DNA of 64,000 nucleotides from Campylobacteraceae bacterium (GTDB taxonomy: Bacteria; Campylobacterota; Campylobacteria; Campylobacterales; Campylobacteraceae), in the NCBI GenBank assembly GCA_031263195.1, contig JAISGD010000024.1, forward strand, positions 1 through 64,000, read 5' to 3'. Of the stretch, positions 49,724-60,213 are shown one piece after another. The first letter of the stretch is position 1, and each line of letters opens with the position of its first letter. A program made the position numbers and the translations under genes. The notes under the pieces were generated by a model. It was given only the letters and a program-made list of their open reading frames with translations, was not told the DNA's origin and ran no database searches.

Positions 49724-49738
49724 ATATTGGAGGATTTT

Positions 49739-51166
49739 ATGAAAAAGTTTATAACAACAACGGCAGGCAGTAAAGTTGCGGACAATCAAAATTCATTGAC
49801 CGCAGGCGCAAGAGGTCCTCTTTTGGTGCAAGATTATCAGCTTCTCGAAAAACTTGCCCATCAAAACAGAGAAAGAGTGCCTGAAAGAGTAGTCCATGCA
49901 AAAGGCAGCGGCGCATACGGAGAGCTTACTATAACTCATGATATTTCAAAATATACAAAAGCGAAAGTTTTGCAAAAAGGCGAGAAAACCAGAATTTTGA
50001 TTAGATTTTCAACCGTTGCTGGGGAGCGAGGTGCGGCAGATGCCGAAAGAGATGTGAGAGGATTTGCTATCAAATTTTACACAAAAGAGGGAAATTGGGA
50101 TTTGGTTGGCAATAATACGCCCGTCTTTTTCGTCAGAGACGCTTATAAATTTCCCGATTTCATACATACGCAAAAAAGACATCCGCACTCAAATCTCAGA
50201 AGTAATACCGCCGCGTGGGATTTTTGGTCTTTGTCGCCGGAGAGTATCCATCAAGTAACGATTCTTATGTCTGATAGAGGAATCCCGAAAAGTTACAGAC
50301 ATATGCATGGATTCGGCTCGCATACATACAGCCTTATAAATGCTAATAATGAGAGGGTTTGGGTCAAATTTCACTTTAAAACTTTGCAGGGCATTCAAAA
50401 TCTTACAAATAAAGAAGCCGAAGCTGTGATAGCAAAAGATAGAGAGAGCAACCAGCGAGACCTTTTTGAGAGTATAGAGAAAAAGGATTTTCCAAGATGG
50501 AAATTTCAGATTCAGATAATGAGCGAAGAAGAGGCTAAAAAAGTTGATTTCAATCCGTTTGATTTGACAAAAGTGTGGTCTCACAAAGAGTATCCGCTGA
50601 TAGACGTCGGCGAGTTGGTTTTGAACGAAAATCCTAAAAACTATTTTAATGAGATAGAGCAATCGTCATTCAGCCCGTCAAATGTAGTGCCAGGTATCAG
50701 CTTTTCGCCCGACAAAATGCTTCAAGCGCGCATATTTTCATACGCAGACGCCCATAGATACAGAGTGGGGACGTATTACGAATCACTGCCCGTAAATAGA
50801 CCGATAGTAGATGTAAATACTTACTACTTGGACGGCAGTTTAAATCATGAGATGAAAGAGCCGACGGATGCTTATTACGAACCAAACAGTTTCGGCGGTT
50901 TTGTGGAAGATAAAAGCGTTCTTGAGCCGCCTCTTGAATTAGATGGTTACGCAAACAGATACGACCATAGAGAAGATAACGACGACTTTTCACAGGCACG
51001 CGCACTGTTTAATCTTATGAGCAGCGAACAAAAAAAGCAGCTGTTTAGCAATATAGCAGAATCCATGAGCGGTGTTCCGCGAGAGATAGTAAATAGACAA
51101 ATAGCTTTGTTTGAAAAAGTTGACTCTCTTTACGCAAATGGCGTCAAAAATGCGCTTGGAATTTAA
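49739..51166 (+). CDS. katA: Heme catalase
   Basis: KatA splits hydrogen peroxide into water and oxygen. I choose the ATG at 49739 (GGAGG 5 bp upstream), giving 475 residues, a small-subunit clade 3 catalase. The catalytic His53 lies in [13 protein letters not shown], the catalytic Asn in [11 protein letters not shown] (125-126), [17 protein letters not shown] is the signature, and the heme-ligating Tyr lies in [14 protein letters not shown]. The ankyrin gene follows after 2 bp. An operator-like palindrome lies upstream. No signal peptide is present, so it is cytosolic. Confidence 0.96.
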
Positions 51167-51168
51167 AA

Positions 51169-51648
51169 ATGTCTTTGGATGATGCGGCGAATATAAAGCG
51201 ATACGAAGAGCTGCTTGCCATAGCTCTTGATTTTGCAAGGCACGGGCAGACAAAAGAACTTGAGAGTATGCTGAAAGCAAAACTGCCGATAAATCTTAAA
51301 GACCACAAAGGAAATACCCTCTTGATGCTCGCCGCATATAACGGCAACGCAGATACGGTTGAAATGCTCATCAATACGGGAGCAGATGTAAACCTGAGAA
51401 ACGACCGAGGACAGACTCCGCTTGCCGGAGTCTGCTTCAAAGGTTATCTTGACATCGTAAAGCTTTTAGTCCGAAACAGCGCAAATATCGATGAAGATAA
51501 CGGCTTTGGCATGAGAGCCGTGATGTTTGCTTCCATGTTCGGCAATTACGATATAGTAGAGTATCTGACGAAGCAAAAAGGCGGATTGAAATCAAAAATT
51601 TATCTTTATATTTCAAAATTTATATCGTTTTTTAAAAAGAGGGGATAG
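51169..51648 (+). CDS. Ankyrin-repeat protein of the catalase operon
   Basis: The 159-residue product has three to four ankyrin repeats: HKGNTLLMLAAYNGNADTVE, RGQTPLAGVCFKGYLDIVK and FGMRAVMFASMFGNYDIVE, followed by a hydrophobic-basic tail. The ATG is 2 bp after the katA stop, so the genes are co-transcribed. In C. jejuni the ankyrin protein Cj1386, also next to katA, helps deliver heme to the catalase; AnkB plays a related role in Pseudomonas. The same role here is inferred from family and position. Confidence 0.88.
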   Translation: MSLDDAANIKRYEELLAIALDFARHGQTKELESMLKAKLPINLKDHKGNTLLMLAAYNGNADTVEMLINTGADVNLRNDRGQTPLAGVCFKGYLDIVKLLVRNSANIDEDNGFGMRAVMFASMFGNYDIVEYLTKQKGGLKSKIYLYISKFISFFKKRG

Positions 51649-55094: not shown

Positions 55095-55469
55095 TTATTT
55101 GCATCTTTTACAGATACCTTTTAAGATGATATTTTTAATCTGATGCTCCTCAATATCGGAATTAATTTCAAAATCTATACATGTAACGCTATGGCAGCTT
55201 TCGCAAACAAAATGAGCGTGAGTTTTTTTAAAAAATTCAAAATACCATTTTCTCTCGTCGGATTCAAATTTTTGAACGATATTCGCTTCTTCAAACAGCG
55301 ATATATTTCTATAAAATGTCGCCTTATCCATATCTATGTTCATTTTAGAACGAATTTGTTCATAACTCAAAGGACTTTTTGCTTGACTTAAGATATCAAG
55401 TATCATCTCTCTGGCAGTTGTAAATTTGATATTTTTGTCTTTAAATAGCTTTTTTATACCGTAGCTCAT
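55095..55469 (-). CDS. zur: Fur-family metal regulator, probably Zur
   Basis: The 124-residue product has a winged-helix domain (FTTAREMILDILSQAKSPLSYEQIRSKM, then DMDKATFYRNISLFEEANIVQK). A C-terminal dimer domain holds the regulatory site HAHFVCESCHSVTCIDFE and the structural Cys pair CKRC. It is read divergently from znuACB with two identical palindromes between, which points to zinc-dependent repression of uptake genes. Fur or PerR identity is possible on sequence alone; the neighbours make Zur the better inference. Confidence 0.8.
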   Translation of the reverse strand: MSYGIKKLFKDKNIKFTTAREMILDILSQAKSPLSYEQIRSKMNIDMDKATFYRNISLFEEANIVQKFESDERKWYFEFFKKTHAHFVCESCHSVTCIDFEINSDIEEHQIKNIILKGICKRCK

Positions 55470-55488: not shown

Positions 55489-55514
55489 GAATGATAGCGA
55501 AATTCTTATTAAGC

Positions 55515-55529
55515 TGCAACTAAGTTGCA
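55515..55529. promoter_or_regulatory. Zinc-locus palindrome, copy 1
   Basis: TGCAACTAAGTTGCA is a perfect 7-1-7 palindrome between the Fur-family gene and znuA, 46 bp from the regulator's start. It is identical to the copy at 55558. Fur-family dimers bind 7-1-7 inverted repeats, so it is a likely Zur operator. Confidence 0.75.
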
Positions 55530-55557
55530 TTTATATATTATGTTTTTTCAAAAATTT

Positions 55558-55572
55558 TGCAACTAAGTTGCA
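55558..55572. promoter_or_regulatory. Zinc-locus palindrome, copy 2
   Basis: An exact second copy of TGCAACTAAGTTGCA, centred 43 bp (about four helical turns) from the first. It ends 19 bp before the znuA ATG, so bound repressor would block transcription or early elongation of znuA. Confidence 0.75.
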
Positions 55573-55591
55573 CAACAAAAGGAGTTTAGCG

Positions 55592-56500
55592 ATGTTTCGT
55601 ACAATGCTTTTTATATGTTTTGGCGTATTTACGCTCTGCGCAAAACCAGCGGTTACTGTTAGTATCTTGCCGCAACAGTATATGGTGGAGAAAATCGCAG
55701 GCGATACGGTAGATATTTTAGTTATGGTTAGTCCGAATGCCAACCATGAAACTTATGAACCAAAGCCCAGCCAAATGAAGTTTTTAGCGAAATCGGATAT
55801 ATATTTCGCTGTTGGTTTGCCATTTGAAAGAGTATGGCTCGATAGATTTGCCGCCGCTTCGCCTAAAATGAATATAATCGATACGGGAGACGGGATCGAA
55901 AAGATAGAGCTACTCAATCATCATCACGATGAACATCATGAGCATGCAGACCATCATGAACATGATGCGGAGCATAACCACAATGCAAATCACGATGAAG
56001 ACAAACATGATGAGCATGATGAGCTTGACCCGCATATTTGGCTTGATCCTACTTTAGTTAAAGTTCAATCCAAAACCATAGCCGATGCGCTTTCTTTGAA
56101 ATATCCGCAAAACGCCGCGCTTTATGCGAAAAATTATGAGAATTTCACTAAAGAGTTGAACGAATTGGATGCAAATCTTTCTAAAAAACTTAGCGCTTTG
56201 AAAAATAGAAGTTTTTTTGTATTTCATCCTTCGTGGGGTTATTTTGCCAAGAGGTACGATTTGGAGCAGATATTTGTTGAAGTTGAGGGCAAAGAGCCAA
56301 AAGCCGCCGAGCTTATAGAGATAGTGAAAAAAGCTAAAGCTAAAAACATAAAAGCTCTTTTGGTCGAACCTCAGGTTTCAGAAAAAAACGCTAAAATAAT
56401 AGCCGATGAAATAGGGGCGAAACTCATTAAAGTTGATCCTATGAAAAAAGATTTAAGTGAAAATTTGAATGAATTGGCAGATATGTTGTTGGGATTTTAA
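55592..56500 (+). CDS. znuA: Zinc ABC transporter substrate-binding protein
   Basis: ZnuA captures periplasmic zinc for import. From the ATG at 55592 (AAGGAG upstream) the product has 302 residues with a signal peptide (MFRTMLFICFGVFTLCA). Zinc ligands are His52 (PNANHETYEP), His148 (DPHIW), a His in VFHPSWGY and a late acidic residue. Between them lies a long His/Asp/Glu-rich loop at about 110-143, typical of zinc-specific ZnuA and less so of manganese proteins. It is the first gene of znuACB. Confidence 0.94.
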   Translation: MFRTMLFICFGVFTLCAKPAVTVSILPQQYMVEKIAGDTVDILVMVSPNANHETYEPKPSQMKFLAKSDIYFAVGLPFERVWLDRFAAASPKMNIIDTGDGIEKIELLNHHHDEHHEHADHHEHDAEHNHNANHDEDKHDEHDELDPHIWLDPTLVKVQSKTIADALSLKYPQNAALYAKNYENFTKELNELDANLSKKLSALKNRSFFVFHPSWGYFAKRYDLEQIFVEVEGKEPKAAELIEIVKKAKAKNIKALLVEPQVSEKNAKIIADEIGAKLIKVDPMKKDLSENLNELADMLLGF

Positions 56501-56503
56501 TAT

Positions 56504-57274
56504 ATGAAAATGGTGCGAGTTCGCGATCTGTCTTTTGCGTACGATAAAGAGAACATATTGGAAAATGTGAATTTTGAGTACGACAGCAACGATTTTTTAG
56601 CTCTTGTGGGACCAAACGGCGGCGGAAAAAGCACGCTTTTAAAGCTTATTTTGGGGCTTTTAAAGCAAACGAGCGGAAAGATAGAGCTGTTTTCTCGAAA
56701 TTTTGGTTACGTTCCGCAAAATACTATGCCAAACGGCGAATTTCCCATAAGCGTTTTAGACGTCGCGCTTATGGGAAGATTGAAAAACAATATTTTTGGT
56801 TTTTACAAAAAAGATGATAAAAAAAAAGCGTTTGAAGCGCTTGAGAAAGTTGACATGCAAAATTACGCGCATAAAAAAATAGGCGAGTTGTCAATAGGTC
56901 AACGGCAAAAAGTTTTTATCGCTCGCGCGCTTACATGTGAGGCGGAATTGTTGATATTGGACGAACCTACTGCCAGCGTTGATATGCAAGGACAAGTGCA
57001 AATTTATAATATTTTAAAATCACTGAATAAAGATAAAGGCGTCATTGTGGTAAGCCACGATGTCGATGTGGTTTTGGGGTACGCGACAAAAATAGCTTAT
57101 CTTAGCCGTACGCTTTTTATGCACGAACCTTCAGCTCTCACCAAAGAGGCGTTTTTTGAAAAATTACAATCAAACAGCACGCATAATTGTCCCGTTGACA
57201 TACTGATGGCAAACACTTGCACGCACAATCACGAACCGAAAAAACACGATAGAATATTTAAAGGCAAATCGTGA
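56504..57274 (+). CDS. znuC: Zinc ABC transporter ATPase
   Basis: ZnuC powers zinc import. The 256-residue product has Walker A GPNGGGKST (36-44), the signature LSIGQRQKV, Walker B ELLILDEPTA and the switch VVSHDVDVV. Its C-terminal tail is rich in Cys and His (THNCPVDIL, NTCTHNHEPKKHD), which could sense or hold zinc on the cytosolic side. It starts 3 bp after znuA and overlaps znuB by 4 bp. Confidence 0.94.
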   Translation: MKMVRVRDLSFAYDKENILENVNFEYDSNDFLALVGPNGGGKSTLLKLILGLLKQTSGKIELFSRNFGYVPQNTMPNGEFPISVLDVALMGRLKNNIFGFYKKDDKKKAFEALEKVDMQNYAHKKIGELSIGQRQKVFIARALTCEAELLILDEPTASVDMQGQVQIYNILKSLNKDKGVIVVSHDVDVVLGYATKIAYLSRTLFMHEPSALTKEAFFEKLQSNSTHNCPVDILMANTCTHNHEPKKHDRIFKGKS

Positions 57275-58086
57275 TAGAGGCTTTGTCCTTTGGATTTGTG
57301 CAAAATGCTTTAATAGCCGGAATATTAGTTAGCATAGCGTGCGGAATTGTTGGAAGTTTAGTGGTGGTAAACCGTATGGTTTTTATCGCGGGAGGCATAG
57401 CGCATGGAGCTTACGGCGGACTTGGACTGGCATTGTTTTTGAGTATATCGCCTCTTTTTGGCGCGTTGGGATTTTCTATAGCACTAGCTGTCGTTATAGC
57501 GTTTTTAACTTATGTCAACAAAGAAAGAGCGGACGCTGTAATAGGCGCTATCTGGGCATTTGGAATGGCTGTTGGTATTATATTCGCCGATATGAGCAAA
57601 GGCTACAATACCGATTTAACAAGTTTTTTATTCGGCGCAATTTTAAGCGTTTCAAGCGGCGATTTATGGCTGATGAGCGTTACATGTATCCTAATAATAG
57701 CAATTATCGCCATTTTTTATAAAGAGTTTTTAGCTATCAGTTTTGATATGGAGTTTTCAAAACTTCAAGGGTTAAACACCAGATTTTTTTACACGCTCTT
57801 ACTTATTATAACAGCGCTTTGCATAGTGGCTTGCATTCGCGCGGTGGGGCTTATTTTGGTTGTGGCGCTTTTAAGCATTCCTCCTTACATCGCTGAAAAG
57901 TTTTGCGTAAGGTTGTCGCGAATGATGATACTTTCATCCGTATTATCCATTGTATTTACACTGACGGGGCTTGCTCTTTCTTACATGTTAGATTTGACTT
58001 CGGGCGCTTCAATTATCTTGGTCGCTTCATTTGCTTTTTTTCTGACAAAAGCGAAACTTGTACTGCGCCGCGGTAACGGTTTATAA
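57271..58086 (+). CDS. znuB: Zinc ABC transporter permease
   Basis: ZnuB is the membrane channel of the importer. The 271-residue product starts at a GTG inside the 4-bp overlap with znuC. It has about eight helices, starting FVQNALIAGILVSIACGIVG and VVVNRMVFIAGGIAHGAYGGLGLA, with the family's RADAVIGAIWAFGMAVGIIF and VGLILVVALLSIPPYIAEKF segments. It ends the operon; the TonB receptor follows after about 180 bp with its own control region. Confidence 0.93.
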   Translation: MIEALSFGFVQNALIAGILVSIACGIVGSLVVVNRMVFIAGGIAHGAYGGLGLALFLSISPLFGALGFSIALAVVIAFLTYVNKERADAVIGAIWAFGMAVGIIFADMSKGYNTDLTSFLFGAILSVSSGDLWLMSVTCILIIAIIAIFYKEFLAISFDMEFSKLQGLNTRFFYTLLLIITALCIVACIRAVGLILVVALLSIPPYIAEKFCVRLSRMMILSSVLSIVFTLTGLALSYMLDLTSGASIILVASFAFFLTKAKLVLRRGNGL

Positions 58087-58185
58087 AGTGAAGCAAATTT
58101 ATAAAATAACGATAAAATCAATTTTGCTCGTAAGCTTAAGCGTCTTAATAAATCCTAAAATATTTTCATAGAAAATTATTCTCAT

Positions 58186-58200
58186 TGATAACTATTATTA
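58186..58200. promoter_or_regulatory. Fur-like box before the TonB receptor gene
   Basis: TGATAACTATTATTA matches the Helicobacter Fur consensus TAATAATNATTATTA at all but two positions. It lies 64 bp before the receptor's start. The znu palindrome TGCAACTAAGTTGCA is not repeated here. Confidence 0.5.
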
Positions 58201-58263
58201 AGTTCTATTTTATACCATTTCTGATATTATTGCCAGAATTTGTTTAAGAAGGAACAATAAATA

Positions 58264-60213
58264 TTGAAAAATTATATTTTAATATGCGCTATAGTCGCGT
58301 CTTTTGCTAATTTGGCTTTAGCTCAAACGGATAATGAGAGTGTAAAACTGGAAGGCATTACCGTGATAGCGCCGCAAGATAAGAGCTCTTATGTTCATAT
58401 AAATCCCAAATCCACTATTCAACCTATTCCTTCATCTGATGGCGCGGAACTTTTAAAAAGTATTCCAAATTTTAGCGTCACAAGAAAAGGCGGCAGTTCG
58501 GGCGATCCGCTGTTTCGCGGGCTTGGAGGTTCGCGTCTTGCCATCACTGCGAACGATGATTTTTTATACGGCGGCTGCGGCGGTCGTATGGATCCTCCCA
58601 CAGCGTATATTTTTCCAAGTTCCTATGATAGAGTGGTGATAACAAAGGGTCCGCAAACAGTAATATATCCGGGCGTAATCGCGGGTTCAGTGCAGTTTTT
58701 AAGATACGATAGCTATTTTGAAAAAGCGGGAGCCAACGGGGAAGCTGGAATTACCGTTGGAAGTTTTGGTAGATTTGACACATTTGCGGACGTTACCGCT
58801 GGGATAAATCAAGGCTACATAAGAGTCAATGGCGTATATAACAAGCAAGATGATTATAAAGATGGCGAAGGGCAGGAGATACATTCGCGGTTTGAACGAA
58901 ATTCTCAAATGGCGCAAATCGGTTTGACGCCTGATGAGTATAGTCTTATAGAGTTTACATACGATAGATCGCGAGGCGAAGCGGCATATGCGGACAGAAC
59001 AATGGACGGTTCAAAATTTGACAGAGACGCTTATAGAGTTAGGCTTTCAAAAGATGATATAAGCGACACTTTTAAAAAAATAAATTTTCAGTACGGATAC
59101 AGCTATGTCGATCATGTGATGGATAACTATAATCTAAGACAAAAACCTGCGGCAAGTAATTTTACGGCTTCAAATCCGGATCGCACGACGCAAAGCGCGT
59201 CTTTGAACGCGGAGTTTGATACGGATATGATTAATATTAAAGTCGGCGCGGATTGGCTGGGTGATAAACATAGAAGTAGATCCGGCAACGGAATAGACAA
59301 AGCGGCTGCTAACGCTTATAAAAGTAAGGATAGAGCTACCAATCAAAAGGCAGACGATATAGGCGTTTTTGCCGAAGCTAACATTGAGCTAACCGACAAA
59401 CATTTGTTAGTTACGGGATTGCGCTATGATAGAAGCGGCATTGATTATTTTACTAACAGTACAAAGAGTAAAAAAGAGGAGTTTGATTTGGGCGCCGCGT
59501 TTTTGCGATACGAATATTATCAAAAAAGCTTTACTTATTTTGCGGGCATTGGACTTGCGCAAAGAGCGCCTGATTTTTGGGAACGCAATAGAAATAAAGA
59601 GTTAAACAAAGAGAGCAATGTAGAGTTTGACGCGGGTATTTTGTATAAAAATGACGGCGTAAGAGGTTCGTTTAATGTATTTGCAAGTCAAATCAACGAT
59701 TTTATTTTGATTTATTCCAATAGCACCGCAAGAAATATAAATGCTAGACGCTATGGTTTTGAAGGCGAAGCCGAGTGGGAATTTGTAAAAAATTATAAAT
59801 TAGGTTTGGCAGCCGCTTATACTTACGGCAAAAACAAAAGTGAGGATAAAGCATTGGCTCAAACGCCACCTTTTGAAATGAGGGGTTTGTTTGGATATGA
59901 CAATGACGTCGTAGCCGCCGCTATTATCGCTCGATATGTTGCGCCTCAGCACAGAGTTGCTGTGGGCGAGGGAAATATAATAGGACAAGATATCAAAAAA
60001 AGCAGCGATTTCGCGGTGATTTCAGTCAATGGAAGTTGGAAAATCAACAAAAATATCAGTCTGTTTTTGGGCGTGGACAATATTTTTGATAAAGCGTACA
60101 GCGAATTTATAAATAAAGGCTCCGTTGATGTGGCGGGATACAATCAGCCGACAGGCATTCAAATACAAGAAGCGGGACGTCAGTTTTGGGTGAGGATACA
60201 AGGGAAGTTTTAA
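58264..60213 (+). CDS. TonB-dependent receptor, copper-receptor (OprC/NosA) type
   Basis: The 649-residue product is an outer-membrane beta-barrel with an N-terminal plug. It starts at a TTG with AAGGAA upstream and has a signal peptide (MKNYILICAIVASFANLALA). The plug contains GGCGGRMDPPTAYIFPSSYD followed by RVVITKGPQTVIYPG, the diagnostic stretch of the TonB-copper family. The barrel ends in an aromatic residue (QFWVRIQGKF). Family members carry copper ions, but its place after znuACB makes zinc an equal candidate. Energising TonB/ExbBD genes are not in the window. Confidence 0.9.
   Translation: MKNYILICAIVASFANLALAQTDNESVKLEGITVIAPQDKSSYVHINPKSTIQPIPSSDGAELLKSIPNFSVTRKGGSSGDPLFRGLGGSRLAITANDDFLYGGCGGRMDPPTAYIFPSSYDRVVITKGPQTVIYPGVIAGSVQFLRYDSYFEKAGANGEAGITVGSFGRFDTFADVTAGINQGYIRVNGVYNKQDDYKDGEGQEIHSRFERNSQMAQIGLTPDEYSLIEFTYDRSRGEAAYADRTMDGSKFDRDAYRVRLSKDDISDTFKKINFQYGYSYVDHVMDNYNLRQKPAASNFTASNPDRTTQSASLNAEFDTDMINIKVGADWLGDKHRSRSGNGIDKAAANAYKSKDRATNQKADDIGVFAEANIELTDKHLLVTGLRYDRSGIDYFTNSTKSKKEEFDLGAAFLRYEYYQKSFTYFAGIGLAQRAPDFWERNRNKELNKESNVEFDAGILYKNDGVRGSFNVFASQINDFILIYSNSTARNINARRYGFEGEAEWEFVKNYKLGLAAAYTYGKNKSEDKALAQTPPFEMRGLFGYDNDVVAAAIIARYVAPQHRVAVGEGNIIGQDIKKSSDFAVISVNGSWKINKNISLFLGVDNIFDKAYSEFINKGSVDVAGYNQPTGIQIQEAGRQFWVRIQGKF

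Follow-up and report, generated by a model that had tools for sequence, protein, structure and literature searches.

The znu locus and its palindromic boxes

Within the window (the whole 64-kb stretch of DNA that was analysed) a gene for a Fur-family protein and the znuACB genes for zinc uptake diverge from a short intergenic region, and in this region a 15-bp palindrome, TGCAACTAAGTTGCA, is present twice. The features of the locus are listed here, the two promoter elements being candidates placed by conservation.

55095..55469, minus strand: Fur-family regulator, Zur candidate, 124 aa (PF01475, E 7e-16)
55491..55496, minus strand: candidate -10 of the regulator gene, TATCAT, 18 bp from box 1
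55515..55529, no strand: box 1, TGCAACTAAGTTGCA, between the two divergent candidate promoters; extended form TTAAGnTGCAACTAAGTTGCATT
55536..55541, plus strand: candidate -10 of znuACB, TATTAT, 6 bp past box 1
55558..55572, no strand: box 2, TGCAACTAAGTTGCA, in the predicted znuA leader, just 5' of the ribosome-binding site
55592..56500, plus strand: znuA, zinc-binding protein with a His-rich loop (PF01297, E 7e-68)
56504..57274, plus strand: znuC, ATPase (PF00005, E 5e-29)
57271..58086, plus strand: znuB, permease (PF00950, E 3e-69)

An earlier note on this DNA had described two identical 15-bp palindromes between a Fur-family gene and znuACB, and the copies prove to be exact, to sit where that note had placed them (55515-55529 and 55558-55572) and to be flanked by the genes it named. 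Their starts are 43 bp apart, with a gap of 28 bp between them. From base composition about 0.007 copies of TGCAACTAAGTTGCA would be expected by chance in the 1.79-Mb genome, where these two are the only exact ones and both are at znu; perfect 7-1-7 palindromes of any sequence number five within the window. Three more sites with two mismatches exist elsewhere in the genome, and of the two of these that were read neither is at a zinc promoter: one falls within a coding frame, and the second is not near a zinc gene.

The start codon of znuA is most plausibly the ATG at 55592, behind an AAGGAG at 55579-55584, and so box 2 is in the leader and outside the gene. Box 2 would then lie between the predicted znuA transcript start and the ribosome-binding site, and box 1 upstream of the predicted start. 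A consensus promoter scan of the region returned nothing above threshold, the TATCAT of the regulator included, and so the promoter positions are taken from conservation: a AATGATAGC block at the regulator's candidate -10 is conserved in 12 genomes of the window's genus, and a T-rich TATATTAT block at the znuACB candidate -10 is conserved in relatives.

Downstream of znuB, TTGATAACTATTATTAA at 58185-58201 resembles a Fur box and precedes a TonB receptor gene (58264-60213) upstream of which the zinc box is absent, and so iron, not zinc, may control this receptor. Elsewhere in the window (49727-51648) a catalase gene is followed directly by a short ankyrin-repeat gene, as read from the translation.

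Conservation of the boxes and their loss with the regulator

The regulator was collected from 60 relatives and the upstream regions read. All 12 loci read from the window's genus have two boxes between the regulator gene and znuA; in the family's other genera the number is one or two, and many relatives have a single box. All 27 readable regulator-znuA regions of the same family carry the box with at most two mismatches, a count that leaves out locus L019 because it is masked by N; at L027 an exact box is found further upstream of the regulator, 42 bp before znuA. A box that differs at no more than two positions is present within 420 bp upstream at 65 of 80 named regulator loci from across the phylum, among them loci of Sulfurospirillum, Arcobacter, Aliarcobacter, Sulfurovum and Sulfurimonas. 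The close named relatives are metagenome assemblies called 'Campylobacteraceae bacterium', and the isolate names of the relatives seem to resemble a termite-gut series.

Same-family relatives that lack the regulator retain znuA in 18 of 18 cases and have the box upstream of it in none of the 18, the best 15-mers there being four to six mismatches away. Across 299 genomes of the order, with the regulator clade cut at a clean profile-score gap between E 6e-25 and 4e-21, exact box and regulator clade are found together in 47, the regulator only in 62, the box only in 8 and neither in 182, and a reversed control pattern is found in 1 of the 299. The co-occurrence has a Fisher P of 1e-16, which ignores kinship and is too small since the genomes are related and their independence is overstated, but its direction is plain. 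Many of the regulator-only genomes belong to families with one-base variants of the box, and 7 of the 8 box-only genomes belong to one family (f15, loci L137-L143) that has its own very divergent Fur-family gene, with the sequence HNPIHPHFxC, directly before znuA and the same 15-mer in front. In f15 a different regulator clade is thus found with the window's operator; a tree places this divergent Zur clade without confidence. Separately, genome G041 has an exact box without the regulator clade (L144:1501), lying some 40 bp from a gene for a membrane protein with a CGWACP motif, on its upstream side, and this copy is perhaps due to chance.

In one species of the window's genus, G009, about nine copies of the palindrome with C or G at the centre occur within a dispersed repeat, and raw box counts in that species are inflated by it. 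The palindromes at znu might then be pieces of such a repeat, incidental in their position; but the window genome has just the two copies at znu, where the flanks are conserved and the flanks of the repeat are absent, and this origin is most improbable. The G009 repeat itself is intergenic and reads TGCAACTCAGTTGCA then CCCCTCCTGCGGAGGGG, one copy having 45-bp inverted arms (copies at L228:350, L232:1121, L233:247, L229:2539 and L231:29).

Box anatomy and spacing

Across 52 two-box regions the box on the regulator side has a near-invariant znuA-side arm followed by TT, with a weaker TTAAG before it, and the flanks of the box on the znuA side are random. Overall the boxes are spaced 29-51 bp apart (35-43 bp within the genus and its nearest sister), with scattered helical phase, and so two dimers need not share a face of the helix. 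The suggestion that the spacing sets both sites on one helix face thus describes a coincidence of this genome and does not extend to relatives, many of which have the single box.

Departures from the box sequence affect one arm in 111 cases and both arms in 1, where the two changes are unpaired, a pattern that a site read by a protein would show and an RNA stem would not. A scan does mark both palindromes as weak stems of terminator type (with 3 G-C pairs out of 6), and each could in principle form an RNA hairpin working as a leader terminator or attenuator. The changes are not compensatory, however, the central CTnAG, which would partly be loop, is conserved as strongly as the stem, and the predicted znuA transcript start comes only after box 1. 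The hairpin reading is ruled out by the non-compensatory changes.

The regulator

The AlphaFold model of the regulator has a pLDDT of 87, and its best PDB matches are Fur, PerR and Zur folds. Against the E. coli-type Zur model NF008646 (an equivalog) the protein scores 24.8 bits for a cut-off of 167, and so is not filed as a Zur of that type. Four cysteines (C89, C92, C120 and C123) make up the structural Cys4 site and are invariant across 33 orthologues, and E78, H84 and H86 match regulatory metal ligands when aligned with PerR. In sister genera H84 is replaced by K or N and position 86 is Y, H or L, such that KAYF, KAHF or NALF takes the place of HAHF in orthologues from the family's other genera (L024, L026-L032 and L034; columns 84-86 and 97-99 of alignments A1 and A3), with the operator and the Cys4 site retained. 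The usual regulatory metal ligands therefore appear to be missing from those Zur orthologues.

The recognition helix of the window's regulator reads DKATFYRN, its core (DKAT or NKTT) is common to all orthologues, and the divergent f15 clade has DKATIYRN or DKTTIYRN. The genome encodes two further Fur-family proteins, and since 7-1-7 symmetry suits any Fur dimer the boxes might instead be bound by one of these, a Fur or a PerR. Their helices differ from that of the regulator, being GIATVYR in Fur and SLATVYK in PerR, and relatives without the regulator have Fur-family paralogues and znuA yet no box, all of which makes reading by Fur or PerR very unlikely. A helix core shared by the orthologues and unlike that of Fur or PerR makes the region of K49 a good candidate for reading the box.

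Box targets in Arcobacteraceae

Family f9, assigned to Arcobacteraceae by named loci, gave 40 regions, and in most of its genomes the exact box is present two to seven times. Each of the 42 box clusters sampled has a gene start no more than 260 bp downstream of it, which holds for 9.8% of positions drawn at random from that DNA. A small set of recurring targets adjoins 38 of the 42, a figure that is descriptive because the target labels were chosen after viewing the loci. These targets are zur, znuA, znuC, a second znu system, TonB-dependent receptors, a hisI-ribA fusion facing pyrC, ribA, queD beside a DUF1007 gene, dksA, a NikA-like binding protein and a SnoaL-like gene that elsewhere lies behind queD. 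Zur regulons elsewhere comprise znuABC, TonB receptors, pyrC2, hisI2, ribA and dksA (PMC6103462), and by gene content the Arcobacteraceae set is a classic zinc-starvation regulon that matches them. The earlier note had proposed a genome-wide search for the motif near other zinc genes, and the expectation is borne out at the zinc promoters of relatives; the window's own genome yielded no zinc promoter with the box besides that of znu.

These targets also bear on which metal is sensed. Operators of the adjacent regulator could belong to a sensor of nickel or manganese, as in Nur or Mur, given that the TGCAA-N5-TTGCA core is the same as that of the Streptomyces Nur box (consensus tTGCaa-N5-ttGCAA, PMC3919588) and that the NikA-like binding protein is among the sampled targets. 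The constant partner, however, is znuACB with its His-rich ZnuA, and the hisI-ribA, ribA, pyrC, queD and dksA paralogues of the relatives include counterparts of known Zur targets (hisI2, pyrC2, ribA and dksA, PMC6103462); no superoxide dismutase was seen beside the box among the sampled targets. A nickel or manganese sensor is therefore unlikely, if less so than the readings by Fur or PerR or as a repeat.

Probable operator function

The boxes, their gene neighbourhood, their conservation, their joint loss with the regulator and the relatives' zinc regulon can all be read in the DNA, and from these the two palindromes are very probably (roughly 0.88) operators for a dimer of the adjacent Fur-family protein, acting as the Zur of Campylobacterota. 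The proposal of a lineage-specific Zur operator with 7-1-7 symmetry is supported, since the motif stands at zinc promoters of relatives and is lost together with the regulator.

Quite how the two operators would act can be sketched, and here we infer binding of the protein to the box, zinc as the co-repressor and autoregulation, along with the promoter positions. With ample zinc a metal-bound dimer would occupy box 1, between the divergent -10 elements, and so repress both znuACB and the regulator's own gene, and a second dimer on box 2, some 10 bp past the predicted znuA transcript start, would tighten the repression of znuACB. When zinc runs short the dimer would leave and the importer be made.

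A wider and more speculative proposal, for which the odds are rather against, is that TGCAACTnAGTTGCA may be an old phylum-wide code for zinc starvation, with two highly divergent Zur clades as its readers, and that in part of Campylobacteraceae a reader without the usual regulatory zinc ligands may keep the operator and have to sense zinc otherwise. As it is, one operator sequence is maintained across very divergent regulators, and that some members of the family seem to have lost the regulatory metal site raises the question of how Fur-family proteins sense zinc. The box can serve as a query for zinc-starvation genes in Campylobacterota, and predicts that some Campylobacteraceae have lost Zur and box and yet kept the zinc importer.

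Comparison with known systems

Zur, 7-1-7 Zur boxes and the two-box znuA promoter are all well known (PMC6103462). That review mentions neither Campylobacter, Helicobacter, Arcobacter nor epsilonproteobacteria and names no member of the phylum, and a proteobacterial regulon survey has epsilonproteobacteria outside its analysis (PMC5343134). No earlier description of a Zur operator in Campylobacterota was found in the literature on Campylobacter, Arcobacter and epsilonproteobacteria (a search that did not cover RegPrecise), nor was the sequence TGCAACTAAGTTGCA itself found in the literature searched.

The window's system resembles the known Zur regulators and boxes (PMC6103462) in its Fur-fold dimer, its Cys4 site, a 7-1-7 palindrome that overlaps the predicted promoter, likely autoregulation and a regulon of znuABC, TonB receptors and zinc-sparing paralogues, and two boxes at the znuA promoter are also found with the Zur of S. 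coelicolor (PMC6103462). It differs from them in the box, TGCAACTnAGTTGCA, and in a protein that resembles the E. coli-type Zur model only remotely. The E. coli Zur box, TRWNAYRWTATAWYRTNWCA (PMC6103462), is likewise a pseudo-palindrome at znu with a dimeric reading, but its sequence is different, and at znuABC the E. coli protein binds as two adjacent cooperating dimers, whereas window-type boxes stand 29-51 bp apart and keep no constant phase. By sequence the nearest known box is the Nur box of Streptomyces coelicolor (PMC3919588), which has the same outer pentamers and spacing of five; however, Nur controls nickel transport and superoxide dismutase, whereas the window-type box marks zinc uptake and zinc-sparing genes.
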